From Rikenella microfusus DSM 15922 (GTDB lineage: Bacteria > Bacteroidota > Bacteroidia > Bacteroidales > Rikenellaceae), in contig NZ_KE386488.1 in NCBI RefSeq assembly GCF_000427365.1, forward strand, positions 2,329,882-2,393,881: a stretch of 64,000 nt of DNA, read 5' to 3'. Of this stretch, positions 39,585 through 45,612 are shown in pieces (the stretch's first letter is position 1; the number at the start of each line of letters is the position of its first letter). The notes under the pieces were generated by a model. The model did no database searches and was not told the DNA's origin. It saw nothing but the letters and a program-made list of their open reading frames with translations. Both the position numbers and the translations under genes were made by a program.

Positions 39585-39724
39585 TGGCGGGCCACGGGCG
39601 CCGGCAATCCCCATTATTGGGGATTTTCCGGTCTGCGGCTCATCACCGGTACGATGCGCGGGATCTGTTCCGGCCGAGCAGCTGCTGATACGGAAGCTGA
39701 TCGGAGCGGATAACGATTAATTGT

Positions 39725-39732
39725 TATCTTTG
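39725..39732 (+). promoter_or_regulatory. -7 promoter element TATCTTTG of the first cobalamin riboswitch transcript
   Basis: Perfect TAnnTTTG just before the riboswitch; the same box occurs at 41749-41756 before the second riboswitch. Confidence 0.7.
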
Positions 39733-39740
39733 CGCCCGAA

Positions 39741-39918
39741 TCGGTTCCGGAAGGGACATTCGTCCCCGACGGATGAAAAGGGAACCGGGTGCGACTCCCG
39801 GACAGTCCCGCTGCTGTGAAGCTCCGTTCGACTTTTCCGTCCGGTCTTTTCGCCACTGGCTTCCGCACGGGCCGGGAAGGCGTCGGGAAAGGGAGTCAGT
39901 CAGAAGACCTGCCGTTCA
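39741..39918 (+). ncRNA. Cobalamin riboswitch controlling the ThrE-type exporter
   Basis: The element shows the standard order of B12 aptamer landmarks: GGAAGGGAC, ACCGGGTGCGACTCCCGGAC, AGTCCCGCTGCTGTGAA, the B12-box-like CGCCACTGGC, GGGAAGGCGTCGGGAAAGG, and AGTCAGAAGACCTGCC at the 3' side. It begins directly after a TATCTTTG promoter and lies about 180 bases before the ThrE-like gene with no other gene between. Bound adenosylcobalamin would be expected to lower expression. Confidence 0.92.
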
Positions 39919-40099
39919 TCAAAGGCCGTTCTTTGCTCGTGGATTAAGCGGGGACGGAGCGAAGACATTTGATTTTCAGTTTTGCAAAAAGAAAGACAGA
40001 CCGGAGGCGGAGGAGCGCCGGTGTACCGTTCGTGTCCGCCGGCTTTTCCGGAAACGGGTGCCTGTACGGCCTCCGTACCTTGGGCCTGAATAAAAAGAG

Positions 40100-41503
40100 A
40101 TGGCGATGGAGATTACGCAACAAGATTCCGAAAAACTTCTGCACCGCAAGCTCGACCTGTTGCTCAGGACGGGCAAACTGTTGATGGAAAGCGCCGCGGA
40201 CACGAGCCGCATCATGCGCAACATGAAACGCACGGCCGCTTATCTGGGTCTGCCGGAAGAACACCTGCATATCTACATCAATTACAACATGCTGATGGTC
40301 AATCTGGGGGACGAGGAGCACTCGTTTTCCAAGTTCCAGCGTTGCGAGAAGCACGGCATCAACATGACTGCCATCTCGGCGATCAGCAAACTCTCCTGGA
40401 GGGCGATCCGCGAGGATTATTCGCTCGAAAGATACGAAGAGGAGCTGGAAAATATCCGTACCCGCAAGCGTAACTATACGCCGTGGCAGGTGGCGGTCGG
40501 GGCCGGGTTCGCCTGCGGCGGTTTCTGCATCCAGTTCGGTTGCGACTGGCCGGCCTTTTTTTACGCTTCGATAGCCGCCATTCTGGGATTCCGTGTGCGG
40601 GCCGTGCTCAACGATTTGGGTTCCAACCATTATGTGAATATCGCGGCCGCCGCTTTCGTCGCCACGCTGCTGGCATGGGCCTCGGCATTCCTCTCGACGG
40701 CCCAGTGGCCGGGAGCGCTGGGAGCTGTGCTCCATTCCGACACGCCGTGGCATCCGTTGCTCGCCTGCGCCCTGTTTATCGTCCCCGGCGTGCCGCTGAT
40801 CAATTTCGTCAGCGACATGCTCGACAACTATGTGCAGGTGGGGATTACGCGGGCGGTCAATACGTTGTTGATCGTCGTGGCGATGGCTTTCGGCATCGCG
40901 TTGGCCATCCGGGTCTGCGGTATCGACAACTTCGTGAAAGACCTGAGCATCACCCCTCATCATACGTACCTCGAATTCGCTGTGGCGGCCGCTATATCGG
41001 CCATGGGTTTCTCCATGATATTCAATATCCCCCGACGTCTGCTCTGGGTGGTCGCCATCGGCGGGATCATCGCCGTTTGTACGCGGAATTTCGTGAACCT
41101 CGGACCCAGCAACAACAATATCGGCCTGGACTGGGGGCCGGTGATCGGTTCTTTGGTCGGTTCGGCCCTGATCAGTATCATCGTGACGCGGCTGGTCCAT
41201 CAGTTCCGCACGCCGCACCATTGCCTGTCCATCCCCAGCGTCATCCCAATGATTCCCGGCGTGCTGATGTACCGCGCGCTGTTCGCTTTTATCGATATGC
41301 GCGGCGTGGTGGGCGAAGTGACCGTGGCCATGAACAATGCCATCCAGGCGTCGCTGATGATTCTCTGCATCGCGATCGGCGTGGCGATTCCGAATATTTT
41401 CGCCCGCCGCTGGATTACGCCCAAACGCCGGAAACAACTGAAGCAAATGATCGAAGAGAGGCGCCTGCGCGGCAAGTTCGTCGATCTGACGAATATCGGT
41501 TAA
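40100..41503 (+). CDS. Threonine/serine exporter (ThrE) family protein under cobalamin control
   Basis: The 467-residue protein has a hydrophilic N-terminal region (1-130) of the DUF1212 part (LMESAADTSRIMRNMKRTAAYLG), followed by about ten membrane helices split into two five-helix blocks (about 135-280 and 305-440), the ThrE plus ThrE_2 arrangement in one chain. The second block has HHCLSIPSVIPMIPGVLMYRALF, a strong ThrE_2 signature. ThrE exports threonine and serine with proton antiport. The cobalamin riboswitch upstream suggests that B12 or a B12-derived need controls it, which is not a usual setting for this family. The start ATGGCGATGG could be either ATG. Confidence 0.9.
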   Translation: MAMEITQQDSEKLLHRKLDLLLRTGKLLMESAADTSRIMRNMKRTAAYLGLPEEHLHIYINYNMLMVNLGDEEHSFSKFQRCEKHGINMTAISAISKLSWRAIREDYSLERYEEELENIRTRKRNYTPWQVAVGAGFACGGFCIQFGCDWPAFFYASIAAILGFRVRAVLNDLGSNHYVNIAAAAFVATLLAWASAFLSTAQWPGALGAVLHSDTPWHPLLACALFIVPGVPLINFVSDMLDNYVQVGITRAVNTLLIVVAMAFGIALAIRVCGIDNFVKDLSITPHHTYLEFAVAAAISAMGFSMIFNIPRRLLWVVAIGGIIAVCTRNFVNLGPSNNNIGLDWGPVIGSLVGSALISIIVTRLVHQFRTPHHCLSIPSVIPMIPGVLMYRALFAFIDMRGVVGEVTVAMNNAIQASLMILCIAIGVAIPNIFARRWITPKRRKQLKQMIEERRLRGKFVDLTNIG

Positions 41504-41568
41504 AGGGCCGGTTTCGGTGCGGTCGTTGCGCCGGACAAAACGTCGGACTGTATTCCTTTTCGGCTGTC

Positions 41569-41603
41569 GCTCCGGTACGGTTTTCGTGCCGGAGCGTTCT
41601 TTT
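41569..41603 (+). terminator. Terminator of the ThrE-like gene
   Basis: GCTCCGGTACG pairs with CGTGCCGGAGC, followed by GTTCTTTTT. Confidence 0.8.
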
Positions 41604-41748: not shown

Positions 41749-41756
41749 TATCTTTG
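41749..41756 (+). promoter_or_regulatory. -7 promoter element TATCTTTG of the second riboswitch transcript
   Basis: Perfect TAnnTTTG, at nearly the same distance from the riboswitch start as at 39725-39732. Confidence 0.7.
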
Positions 41757-41762
41757 CACCCG

Positions 41763-41945
41763 AACTGGTTCCGGAAGGGATATTTCGTCCCCGACGGATG
41801 AAAAGGGAACCGGGTGCGACTCCCGGACAGTCCCGCTGCTGTGAAACTCCGTTCGACTTTTCCGTCCGATCTTTTCGCCACTGGCTCCCGATGAGCCGGG
41901 AAGGCGTCGGGAAAGGGAGTCAGTCAGAAGACCTGCCGTTCATCA
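41763..41945 (+). ncRNA. Cobalamin riboswitch controlling nrdAB
   Basis: Same landmarks as the element at 39741-39918: ACCGGGTGCGACTCCCGGAC, AGTCCCGCTGCTGTGAA, CGCCACTGGC, GGGAAGGCGTCGGGAAAGG, AGTCAGAAGACCTGCC. Long stretches are identical between the two, with differences mainly in one peripheral helix (CTTCCGCACGGGCC versus CTCCCGATGAGCC). It ends about 65 bases before nrdA. B12-dependent repression of a B12-independent ribonucleotide reductase is known from other bacteria. Confidence 0.93.
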
Positions 41946-42011
41946 AAGGCCGTCGCCGCTCGTGGGTTAGGGCGATGGTTCGAAACGATTGTTACCGTTA
42001 AAATACACCCG

Positions 42012-44531
42012 ATGGTTATTACCAAAAGGAACGGGTCTGTCGAGCCTTACGACCGGGAGAAAATCGCCGTCGCCGTGAGGAAAAGTTTCGCCAGTACCGG
42101 ACGTGAAGCCCCCGACGAAGCGATTTACGCCATGGTCGGCGAGGTGGAGCTTTTCGTGAACAGCGACCCGTCCAACCGCCATGTGGAACGTATCCAGGAC
42201 GAAGTGGAACGTACCTTGATGGAGCACGGTTTTTATGCCGAAGCGAAAAACTACATCCTTTACCGATGGCAGCGTACCGAACGCCGCCGAGTGATCGGAG
42301 GCATCGTCCGCGACGTCGGCGACGAGGCGATCGCCGAAACCCTCCGCGAAATTCAGCAGGATTTTCCGCGTAATGAATACAGCCTGTCGATACTCGCCGA
42401 GAAATTCGCCGGTTTCGGAAAACCGGGCATGAAACCGGACGAAAGCCTTGCGGCCTTGATCAAGGCCGCCGTCGAACTGACCACCCAGGAGGCTCCCGAG
42501 TGGGAATTCATCGCCGCCCGTCTGTCGGGATTCCGGCTGGCCCGGCGCCTCGAAGCCCAGGCCGAAAGGGCCGGGTGGAACACCTTTTACGACAAGTTGC
42601 GTTACCTGACGGACGAAGGGTTGTACGGCGATTATATCCTCGCTTCCTATTCCCGCGGGGAGATCGACGATGCGGCCGGTTTCATCCGTCCCGAACGGGA
42701 TAAGCTGTTCAACTATTCGGGGCTGGACCTGCTCGTGAAACGTTACCTGATCCGCAACCGTTCGCACGAACCGGTCGAGTCGGTACAGGAGATGTTTCTC
42801 GGTATCGCCCTGCATCTGGCGATGCCGGAAAAAAACGACCGTATGGGGTGGGTACGGAGGTTTTACGACCTGCTGAGCCGTCTGGAGGCGACTATGGCTA
42901 CGCCGACGCTGGCCAATGCCCGTAAACCGTACCACCAATTGTCGAGTTGTTTCATCGACACGGTGCCCGACAGCCTCGAAGGGATTTACCGCAGCATCGA
43001 CAATTTCGCGATGGTGAGCAAATTCGGAGGCGGAATGGGGCTGTATTTCGGTAAAGTGAGGGCGGCCGGCGGTTCGATCAGGGGGTTCAAAGGGGTGGCC
43101 GGAGGCGTCATCCGGTGGATGAAGCTGGTGAACGATACGGCCGTGGCGGTCGATCAGCTGGGGATGCGGCAGGGGGCCGTGGCGGTCTATCTGGATGCGT
43201 GGCACAAGGACTTGCCCGAATTTCTGCAATTGCGTACCAACAACGGCGACGACCGCATGAAGGCCCACGATATTTTTCCGGCCGTCTGTTATCCCGATCT
43301 TTTCTGGCGTATGGCCCGCGAGGACATGGAACAACCGTGGCATCTGTTCTGTCCGAACGAGATACTGGCGGTCAAGGGTTATTCGCTGGAGGATTGTTAC
43401 GGGGAGGAGTGGGAGAAACGTTATCTGGAATGCGTGAACGATGCCCGGATTTCACGGCGCACGATCAGTGTCAAAGACGTCGTGCGCCTGGTGCTGCGTT
43501 CCGCCGTCGAAACGGGCACTCCGTTCGCTTTCAACCGCGATACGGTGAACCGGGCCAATCCGAACGGCCACAGGGGAATGATTTACTGTTCGAACCTCTG
43601 TACCGAAATCGCGCAGAACATGTCGCCCATCGAGACCCTTTCGACCGAAATCCGTACCGAAGAGGGCGACACGGTGGTGGTGGAGACCGTCCGCCCCGGC
43701 GATTTCGTGGTCTGCAACCTCGCCAGCCTGTCGCTGGGCCATCTGCCGCTGGAAGACGAAGCGCAGATGAAAGAAAAAGTGGCCACGCTCGTGCGGGCGC
43801 TGGACAATGTGATCGACCTGAATTTCTACGCCATTCCCTATGCCCGCATCACGAACCGCCGTTACCGCAGTATCGGATTGGGTGTGAGTGGTTATCATCA
43901 TGCGTTGGCCGTGCGGGGTATCCGCTGGGAGAGCGAAGAGCATCTGCGCTTTATGGACGAAGTGTTCGAGCGGATCAATTATGCCGCTATCGAGGCCAGT
44001 GCGGAACTCTCTGCCGAGAAAGGAAGTTACGATTATTTCGAGGGCAGCGACTGGCAGACGGGAGCCTATTTCGCAAAACGCGGCTACGATTCGCCCGCGT
44101 GGCAGCGACTGGCGGACAAAATCCGGACCGGCGGGATGCGCAACGCCTACCTGCTGGCCGTCGCGCCCACCAGCAGTACGGGGATCATTGCGGGAACTAC
44201 GGCCGGAGTCGATCCGGTCATGCAGCGTTTTTTCCTGGAGGAGAAAAAGGGATCGATGCTTCCGCGCGTGGCTCCGGCCCTGTCGGACAAGACGTTCTGG
44301 CAATACAAAGGGGCTTATCTGATCGACCAGCGGTGGAGCGTCCGTGCGGCGGGTATCCGTCAGCGGCATATCGACCAGGCGCAGAGCATGAACCTGTATA
44401 TCACCAACGATTACTCGATGCGGCAGGTGCTCGATCTGTATCTGCTGGCTTGGGAGTGCGGCGTGAAAACGGTCTATTATGTCCGCAGCAAGTCGCTTGA
44501 AGTGGAAGAGTGCGAGAGCTGCGCTTCCTGA
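42012..44531 (+). CDS. nrdA: Class Ia ribonucleoside-diphosphate reductase, alpha subunit
   Basis: The 839-residue protein begins with an ATP-cone (about 1-90, MVITKRNGSVEPYDREKI), giving allosteric activity control. The active site shows Cys313 (LSSCFID) and Cys568 (FVVCNL) as the redox pair and Asn528/Cys530/Glu532 (SNLCTE) as the radical cysteine set. The C-terminus ends in the swinging pair CESC, and YYVRS carries tyrosines of the radical path. It reduces ribonucleotides to deoxyribonucleotides with the NrdB radical subunit and oxygen. A B12 riboswitch precedes it, implying a B12-dependent class II enzyme elsewhere in the genome. nrdB follows after 31 bases. Confidence 0.96.
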   Translation: MVITKRNGSVEPYDREKIAVAVRKSFASTGREAPDEAIYAMVGEVELFVNSDPSNRHVERIQDEVERTLMEHGFYAEAKNYILYRWQRTERRRVIGGIVRDVGDEAIAETLREIQQDFPRNEYSLSILAEKFAGFGKPGMKPDESLAALIKAAVELTTQEAPEWEFIAARLSGFRLARRLEAQAERAGWNTFYDKLRYLTDEGLYGDYILASYSRGEIDDAAGFIRPERDKLFNYSGLDLLVKRYLIRNRSHEPVESVQEMFLGIALHLAMPEKNDRMGWVRRFYDLLSRLEATMATPTLANARKPYHQLSSCFIDTVPDSLEGIYRSIDNFAMVSKFGGGMGLYFGKVRAAGGSIRGFKGVAGGVIRWMKLVNDTAVAVDQLGMRQGAVAVYLDAWHKDLPEFLQLRTNNGDDRMKAHDIFPAVCYPDLFWRMAREDMEQPWHLFCPNEILAVKGYSLEDCYGEEWEKRYLECVNDARISRRTISVKDVVRLVLRSAVETGTPFAFNRDTVNRANPNGHRGMIYCSNLCTEIAQNMSPIETLSTEIRTEEGDTVVVETVRPGDFVVCNLASLSLGHLPLEDEAQMKEKVATLVRALDNVIDLNFYAIPYARITNRRYRSIGLGVSGYHHALAVRGIRWESEEHLRFMDEVFERINYAAIEASAELSAEKGSYDYFEGSDWQTGAYFAKRGYDSPAWQRLADKIRTGGMRNAYLLAVAPTSSTGIIAGTTAGVDPVMQRFFLEEKKGSMLPRVAPALSDKTFWQYKGAYLIDQRWSVRAAGIRQRHIDQAQSMNLYITNDYSMRQVLDLYLLAWECGVKTVYYVRSKSLEVEECESCAS

Positions 44532-44562
44532 CATTCCGTGTAACGACAACAAATCGACAAGA

Positions 44563-45612
44563 ATGGAAACGAAAACATTGAAGAAAAACGCCCTGTTCAA
44601 TCCGGAGGGCGATACGGACCTGGCGTTGCGGCGCATGATCGGCGGCAATACGACCAATTTGAACGATTTCAACAACATGCGGTACAAATGGGTCAGCGAC
44701 TGGTACCGTCAGGCGATGAATAATTTCTGGATACCGGAAGAGATCAACCTCACGCAGGACACGAAGGATTACCCGCTGCTCACGCGGGCCGAACGGACGG
44801 CTTACGACAAGATTCTGAGTTTTCTGGTTTTTCTGGATTCCCTGCAAAGCAACAACCTGCCGACCGTGAGCGAATACGTGACGGCCAACGAGGTGAACCT
44901 CTGCCTGCACATCCAGGCTTTCCAGGAGTGTGTCCACAGCCAGAGTTACAGCTATATGCTCGATACGATATGCAGCCCTGAAGAGCGCAACGACATTCTG
45001 TATCAGTGGAAGACGGACGGGCATCTGCTGCGCCGCAACCAGTTTATCGGCGATTGTTACAACGATTTCCAGCGGCACCAGACCGGTTCCACGCTGATGA
45101 AGACGGTCATCGCCAATTATATTCTGGAGGGGATCTATTTTTACAGCGGTTTCATGTTTTTCTATAATCTGAGCCGCAACGGAAAGATGCCGGGGTCGGC
45201 GCAGGAGATCCGCTATATCAATCGGGACGAGAATACCCACCTGTGGTTGTTCCGCAATATGATCCTGGAGTTGAAGAAGGAGGAGCCGGAACTGTTCACG
45301 CCGGACCGGGTGGCGGTTTACGAGGAGATGATGCGCGAGGGGGTCCGGCAGGAGATCGAATGGGGACAGTATGTGATCGGGGACGACATACCGGGGCTGA
45401 CGCGGCAGATGGTCTCCGATTATATCCGTTATCTGGGCAATTTGCGCTGGAACAGCCTCGGATTCGGAGACCTGTTCGAGGACAACCGTACCGAACCGGA
45501 AAGCATGCGGTGGGTATCGCAGTATGCCAATGCCAATATGGTCAAAACCGATTTTTTCGAGGCCAAAAGCACCGCTTATGCCAAAAGTACGGCGCTGAAG
45601 GATGATTTATAG
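44563..45612 (+). CDS. nrdB: Class Ia ribonucleoside-diphosphate reductase, beta (radical) subunit
   Basis: The 349-residue protein starts at ATG 44563 (METKTLKKNALFNPEG); an in-frame ATG 28 codons upstream lies within the nrdA end and adds unlike sequence. Di-iron ligands can be seen: Asp92 (FLDSLQSN), Glu122 and His125 (QECVHSQSY), and the later Glu/His set in NYILEGIYFYSGF and NRDENTHLW. Tyr129, seven residues after Glu122, is in the place of the E. coli radical tyrosine, so the enzyme is the normal oxygen-dependent type. It is co-transcribed with nrdA. Confidence 0.96.
   Translation: METKTLKKNALFNPEGDTDLALRRMIGGNTTNLNDFNNMRYKWVSDWYRQAMNNFWIPEEINLTQDTKDYPLLTRAERTAYDKILSFLVFLDSLQSNNLPTVSEYVTANEVNLCLHIQAFQECVHSQSYSYMLDTICSPEERNDILYQWKTDGHLLRRNQFIGDCYNDFQRHQTGSTLMKTVIANYILEGIYFYSGFMFFYNLSRNGKMPGSAQEIRYINRDENTHLWLFRNMILELKKEEPELFTPDRVAVYEEMMREGVRQEIEWGQYVIGDDIPGLTRQMVSDYIRYLGNLRWNSLGFGDLFEDNRTEPESMRWVSQYANANMVKTDFFEAKSTAYAKSTALKDDL

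Follow-up and report, generated by a model that had tools for sequence, protein, structure and literature searches.

A cobalamin riboswitch precedes a ThrE-family exporter gene in Rikenella microfusus and some of its relatives and may control an exit for succinate

Why should a B12 riboswitch stand in front of a gene for a metabolite exporter? The question is raised by a 64,000-nucleotide stretch of the Rikenella microfusus DSM 15922 genome, here called the window. A preliminary description of this stretch had noticed a full B12 aptamer with its own promoter and no other gene before a ThrE-like open reading frame (ORF). From this it had placed the transporter in the B12 regulon, perhaps moving threonine, an aminopropanol precursor or a cobamide-related compound, with a substrate that may differ from that of classical ThrE. 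The locus contains the following features, all on the forward (+) strand:

39725-39930 (+): cobalamin riboswitch aptamer on the exporter side (RF00174, full length, 94.8 bits)
39725-39732 (+): Bacteroidota-type −7 promoter box, TATCTTTG, the opening eight bases of the aptamer match
39931-40099 (+): leader or expression platform of about 170 nt, between the aptamer and the exporter gene
40100-41503 (+): fused ThrE-family exporter gene, 467 aa, with PF06738 and PF12821 domains
41568-41596 (+): terminator-like hairpin with a 13-pair stem and a T-rich tail, 3' of the exporter gene
41749-41954 (+): second cobalamin riboswitch, before nrdAB (RF00174, 94.8 bits)
42012-44531 (+): nrdA, large subunit of class I (B12-independent) ribonucleotide reductase (family matches)
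44479-45612 (+): nrdB, small subunit of class I ribonucleotide reductase (PF00268)

The aptamer passed the covariance check, with model positions 1-189 of RF00174 all covered and an E value of 2.6e-22 in Rfam, its 94.8 bits comparing with a gathering cut-off of 31.5 bits. Its opening bases were labelled with the motif TAnnTTTG, which we take to be the Bacteroidota-type −7 box, and TAnCTTTG is the consensus at this position in an alignment of 26 riboswitches, which agrees with the proposal that the element has its own promoter. A sigma-70-type scan found no promoter, which is what a Bacteroidota-type promoter would lead one to expect. In its full-length match, its position in the 5' leader and the promoter box at its start, the element is like other members of RF00174; it differs in its target, which is a metabolite exporter and not a gene for B12 uptake, synthesis or an isoenzyme. 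There is no credible gene between the aptamer and the exporter gene, as had been noticed, the only ORFs in the leader also overlapping one or the other, and scanning of the leader detected no terminator-like site. With a terminator-like hairpin behind it, the exporter gene looks monocistronic.

The deduced protein matched both ThrE families above their gathering scores (PF06738 ThrE, 211.7 bits; PF12821 ThrE_2, 92.2 bits). Against NF047720, the equivalog model of the threonine/serine exporter ThrE, it scored 91.2 bits with a cut-off of 550, so that the suggestion of a substrate other than that of classical ThrE may well be right. C. glutamicum ThrE has the same Pfam families and fused architecture; the window protein is set apart by this score and by the riboswitch in front of its gene. 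Likewise, the YjjB-type model NF007391 gave 44.1 bits (cut-off 249), as compared with 324.8 for E. coli YjjB. The window protein has the same two domain types as E. coli YjjPB, and split forms of the family occur in B12 riboswitch operons of relatives (split homologues are found in genomes G004, G030, G032 and others), whereas the window protein is a single fused chain instead of two subunits, distant in sequence and below the YjjB cut-off. YjjPB of E. coli is a succinate exporter (Fukui 2017 as cited in PMC10717943; PMC7236211), and the window protein may work like YjjPB. We file the locus under RF00174 and the ThrE superfamily, and neither under the curated ThrE threonine/serine exporter nor under YjjPB. 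Because the protein stays below the cut-offs of both the curated ThrE and YjjB models, its sequence does not tell threonine from succinate as the substrate. Nor did structure give a hint, since a predicted model (pLDDT 77.8) had no Foldseek match at E ≤ 0.001; a search by sequence for relatives with solved structures returned none that was convincing (best E 0.09).

To place the locus among its relatives, we surveyed 150 genomes of the Rikenellaceae and inspected all 47 ThrE loci over the Pfam cut-off (G000 is the window genome; G003, Millionella massiliensis, and G014, Alistipes sp. dk3624, both belong to this family). Neighbours were called by family matches and tblastn, because calls from long ORFs alone gave wrong-strand frames in these G+C-rich genomes. 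Ten of the 47 loci have a same-strand B12 riboswitch upstream, one of them decayed. The riboswitch directly precedes a fused ThrE gene in G000, G003, G014 and G083, and a split, YjjPB-like one in G030 and G032; G004, G081 and G110 contain a riboswitch-nrdD-nrdG-ThrE operon, and G017 a riboswitch-TonB-dependent receptor-DUF5074-ThrE operon, the receptor of which is possibly for B12. The decayed element is that of G083 (L141, 7254-7457), which reaches 35.9 bits and lacks several bases that are invariant elsewhere, and in G086 the riboswitch is directed away from ThrE. No same-strand riboswitch was found upstream of the remaining 37 loci within the stretches fetched, four of which lie on cut contigs (G002, G005 and G009, with less than 1 kb upstream, and G173, where the contig ends inside nrdD); the gene order nrdG-ThrE-carboxyltransferase, as in G004, is retained in G002 and G005, and G173 is arranged like G110 (nrdD-nrdG-ThrE). 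A regular expression for the riboswitch 3' core was also tried and recovered 35 of 35 known elements, but its hits in G158 and G068 were confirmed by neither of two covariance models and it missed the decayed G083 element, and it was replaced by the models.

Nine ThrE loci from other families of the order had no riboswitch in the stretches fetched, some of them short. The survey of ThrE homologues that the preliminary description had proposed had a divided outcome: among 34 named fused loci, a riboswitch accompanies those of Millionella massiliensis and Alistipes sp. dk3624, and the other 32 (mostly Prevotella, Hoylesella, Alloprevotella, Phocaeicola and kin) show no Rfam riboswitch in the stretch examined, which for two of the 34 extends less than 1.5 kb upstream. 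Since 32 of the 34 are without one, the riboswitch is a trait of some Rikenellaceae and not of the protein family. The phylogeny of the ThrE domain (n = 77; L112 was left out as too short, and L097-L099 and L128 as the same contigs as those of G003, G014, G015 and G027) separates deeply a fused clade and two split clades, each with riboswitch-linked members, and the riboswitch label needs seven changes on this tree, in which long branches are flagged and the root is unsure. In 37 family genomes with 122 riboswitches, and under strict filters, ThrE came first after the riboswitch for 5 of 19 genes, as compared with an expectation of 0.034 that assumes one gene per 1.1 kb. Three of these five form one clade; the probability of at least two such events is 5.5e-4.

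The riboswitch-nrdD-nrdG-carboxyltransferase locus is shared within the genus of the window and in G004 includes a split ThrE gene, whereas in G000 and G003 it contains no ThrE and the fused gene lies elsewhere under its own riboswitch; no ThrE remnant was found in this locus of G000. Thus, two different arrangements keep a ThrE-type exporter behind a B12 riboswitch. Together with the relatives that have the same arrangement as the window and the riboswitch-linked members of two further ThrE clades, this comparative genomic evidence supports well the earlier assignment of the exporter to the B12 regulon, to which it very probably belongs.

A second exporter family takes the same position. Genes of the AAEx family (PF06826) lie directly behind a B12 riboswitch in G086, G027 and G022, and in G019 (L179, 1479-6167) an AAEx gene is found within a riboswitch operon, flanked by nrdD and by a short gene resembling nrdG (Fer4_12, 23.6 bits vs 22). 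AAEx genes are common (131 of the 150 family genomes); for the 37-genome set, to which G086 does not belong, around 0.09 direct placements would be expected and at least two were seen among the matches listed. Additionally, an AAEx gene from either of two subfamilies adjoins fused ThrE in 9 of the 30 named loci outside the family of the window, that is, the 34 fused loci minus four. From the names of their models, the ThrE family includes threonine/serine exporters and AAEx includes aspartate:alanine exchangers; SucE1, a member of the AAEx family, exports succinate (PMC7419537, PMC10717943). The overlap between the substrates cited for the two families is succinate. The window protein belongs to a different Pfam family from SucE1, yet in relatives the B12 riboswitches that precede AAEx genes belong to the same subgroup as the one before the exporter gene.

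The window genome contains five B12 riboswitches, located before the exporter gene, before nrdAB, before nrdD-nrdG (followed by carboxyltransferase and biotin carboxylase genes) and before two DUF5074 proteins, one of which is followed by a stretch resembling the TonB-dependent receptor of G017 (25% identity). It also encodes the B12-dependent reductase NrdJ, the methionine synthase MetH and two matches to methylmalonyl-CoA mutase. Riboswitch-controlled answers can plausibly be assigned to two of the three B12-dependent functions searched, namely NrdAB and NrdDG for NrdJ and the exporter for the mutase, and none was found in this genome for MetH. The presence of the mutase was considered as a discriminating test among relatives and discarded, being near universal (56 of 61 genomes).

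Methylmalonyl-CoA mutase, which uses B12 as its cofactor, acts after succinate on the way to propionate. From the riboswitch, the recurrence of two exporter families behind it and the B12-dependent enzymes of the genome, we infer that the exporter is probably repressed by B12, works outwards and carries succinate or a close C4-dicarboxylate. When B12 is present, the riboswitch would shut the exporter gene and the mutase would pass succinyl-CoA on to propionate; when it is absent, the mutase would stall, the riboswitch would permit expression and the exporter would act as an overflow valve, letting out the succinate whose conversion is blocked. By the same logic at the RNA level, the B12-independent NrdAB and NrdDG of this genome would be switched on when NrdJ fails. 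The exporter would share with B12-independent isoenzymes (NrdAB and NrdDG here, MetE elsewhere) the logic of being made when B12 is missing, although it would remove the substrate of the blocked pathway and not bypass the blocked enzyme. Bound B12 lowers expression in most cobalamin riboswitches (PMC11575231), and B12-depleted Prevotella ruminicola accumulates succinate (Strobel 1992, as cited in PMC7568257).

The family name ThrE favours a different cargo, in which threonine, serine, homoserine or another amino acid would be exported when MetH stalls. Some gene neighbourhoods fit this reading and count against succinate: in G018 and G024, split ThrE is immediately preceded by a gene for O-acetylhomoserine sulfhydrylase, and in G004, where ThrE is riboswitch-linked, and in G005 such a gene occurs on the same strand about 5.5 kb downstream of ThrE; lysC-lysA is found upstream of the fused ThrE gene of G027. 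This last genome also has a B12 riboswitch (L184, 3420-3639, −), outside the exporter set, before a gene of the Na:alanine symporter family (PF01235), and the window genome, which has MetH, gave no match to MetE at E 0.001. However, amino-acid genes directly adjoin ThrE only at loci free of riboswitches, whereas the neighbours of riboswitch-linked ThrE genes are reductases, a TonB-dependent receptor and carboxylase-like genes, and the window protein falls below the ThrE equivalog cut-off. We consider amino-acid export rather unlikely.

The grouping of the riboswitches themselves relates the exporters to carboxylases. Two trees were built, one of 86 riboswitches and one of 83. In these, the eight intact elements that directly precede ThrE or AAEx genes group with three carboxylase riboswitches, two riboswitches of G028 and the nrdA copy. 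A set of 14 rows is the smallest to contain all exporter and carboxylase rows, with support of 82/93 in the second tree, where the bootstrap had not settled; in the first tree, the starred set comprises 20 rows. A shortened joint is present in all eight exporter riboswitches and in 8 of the 78 others of the 86-riboswitch set (Fisher p 2.4e-7, a value that ignores relatedness and the choice of rows). The 86 rows are a non-random sample: they cover part of the 122 riboswitches, and the rows before ThrE genes, with one before an AAEx gene, were added for their targets; the decayed G083 element was left out of the set, and three long rows out of the second tree. A further riboswitch of the subgroup, in L193, stands before a stretch with masked bases and was assigned no target. 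Separately, the riboswitches of L203 (3137-3334, −) and L190 (194-399, +) have as targets cupin (PF07883) and diphthamide-synthase-like (PF01902) proteins.

In G014, G033 and G034, a riboswitch of the same subgroup lies directly upstream of an operon for a biotin carboxylase, a carrier and a carboxyltransferase:

L169, 295-5195: riboswitch-biotin carboxylase-carrier-carboxyltransferase operon, followed by a carbonic anhydrase gene (PF00484)
L241, 4721-8853: riboswitch-biotin carboxylase-carrier-carboxyltransferase operon
L242, 8243-12185: riboswitch-biotin carboxylase-carrier-carboxyltransferase operon

In G032, a decayed propionyl-CoA-carboxylase-like carboxyltransferase gene is located between the riboswitch and ThrE, and its main piece is 70% identical to the carboxyltransferase of the G014 carboxylase operon, suggesting that both types of target were linked in one ancestral operon. 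Carboxyltransferase genes also lie behind riboswitch-nrdDG(-ThrE) in G000, G003 and G004. The one beside ThrE in G004 was examined as a methylmalonyl-CoA decarboxylase (mmdA) and rejected, with 725.7 bits against a cut-off of 998.8; because of this score and of the adjoining biotin carboxylase gene, we describe it as propionyl-CoA-carboxylase-like and give it less weight as evidence. We tentatively propose that this riboswitch subgroup could mark, in the Rikenellaceae, a module that responds to mutase failure and pairs a propionyl-CoA-carboxylase-like operon with a dicarboxylate exporter, for which fused ThrE, split YjjPB-like and AAEx proteins would be interchangeable. B12 might then set the output of succinate relative to propionate both by controlling the gene of the exit valve and by loading the mutase with its cofactor.

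The same carboxylases allow for methylmalonate as the exported compound. In B12 starvation, riboswitch-controlled carboxylation of propionyl-CoA would make methylmalonyl-CoA pile up, to be hydrolysed and released. The three carboxylase operons, the decayed gene of G032 and the carboxyltransferases behind riboswitch-nrdDG(-ThrE) are consistent with this sequence of events, but the substrate of the carboxylases is putative, the best model for the G004 gene is mmdA at a score below its cut-off, and we know of no methylmalonate exporter in the ThrE or AAEx families, all of which makes this reading improbable. Even less probable, in our estimation, is the movement of threonine, aminopropanol phosphate or another building block or intermediate of cobamides, the link originally put forward. 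It would accord with riboswitch control itself and with the G017 operon and its TonB-dependent receptor. However, an unsystematic look recognised no cobamide-building gene among the identified neighbours of riboswitch-linked ThrE loci, and the same riboswitch subgroup precedes AAEx and carboxylase genes; both the neighbouring genes and the AAEx genes found at the equivalent place speak for export of a C4-dicarboxylate where the pathway branches at methylmalonyl-CoA mutase. Finally, it is equally improbable that the exporter riboswitch is a functionless accidental copy of the nrdAB riboswitch, as the 94% identity between the two and the decay of the related G083 element might suggest, given that G003 and G014 have an exporter riboswitch and no nrdA or nrdB match in the surrounding 16 kb, that the nrdA copy branches from within the exporter riboswitches (support 99/91, second tree) and that there are independent cases elsewhere.

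B12 decides between the release of succinate and of propionate in many Bacteroidales, and these two gut metabolites differ in their effects on the host and on neighbouring bacteria. If the preferred reading of a B12-repressed succinate exporter holds, a B12 riboswitch on the likely exit of succinate would mean that this branch is also controlled through gene expression at its other end, and would help to identify the succinate exporters of these bacteria. The targets of B12 riboswitches would then extend beyond uptake and isoenzymes to the relief of a blocked pathway. Among the matches listed from the open-access literature, we found no link between a B12 riboswitch and ThrE, AAEx, succinate or Bacteroidota targets. 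Evidence to the contrary comes from Xylanibacter ruminicola, for which none of four riboswitches was reported in 2024 at propionate-pathway genes, and control was ascribed for the most part to the mutase together with its cofactor (PMC11575231); neither "exporter" nor "threonine" occurs in the main text of that article.

Two minor observations concern the neighbours of the exporters. As the nrdA copy of the riboswitch, to which the preliminary description makes no reference, nests among those of exporters, copying most likely proceeded from the exporter to nrdAB, and nrdAB may have entered the B12 regulon through local duplication of the exporter riboswitch. In many family loci, a DUF6064 membrane protein (PF19540; L140, 9070-9804) or a homologue is encoded 3' of split ThrE, possibly as an additional partner of the exporter.
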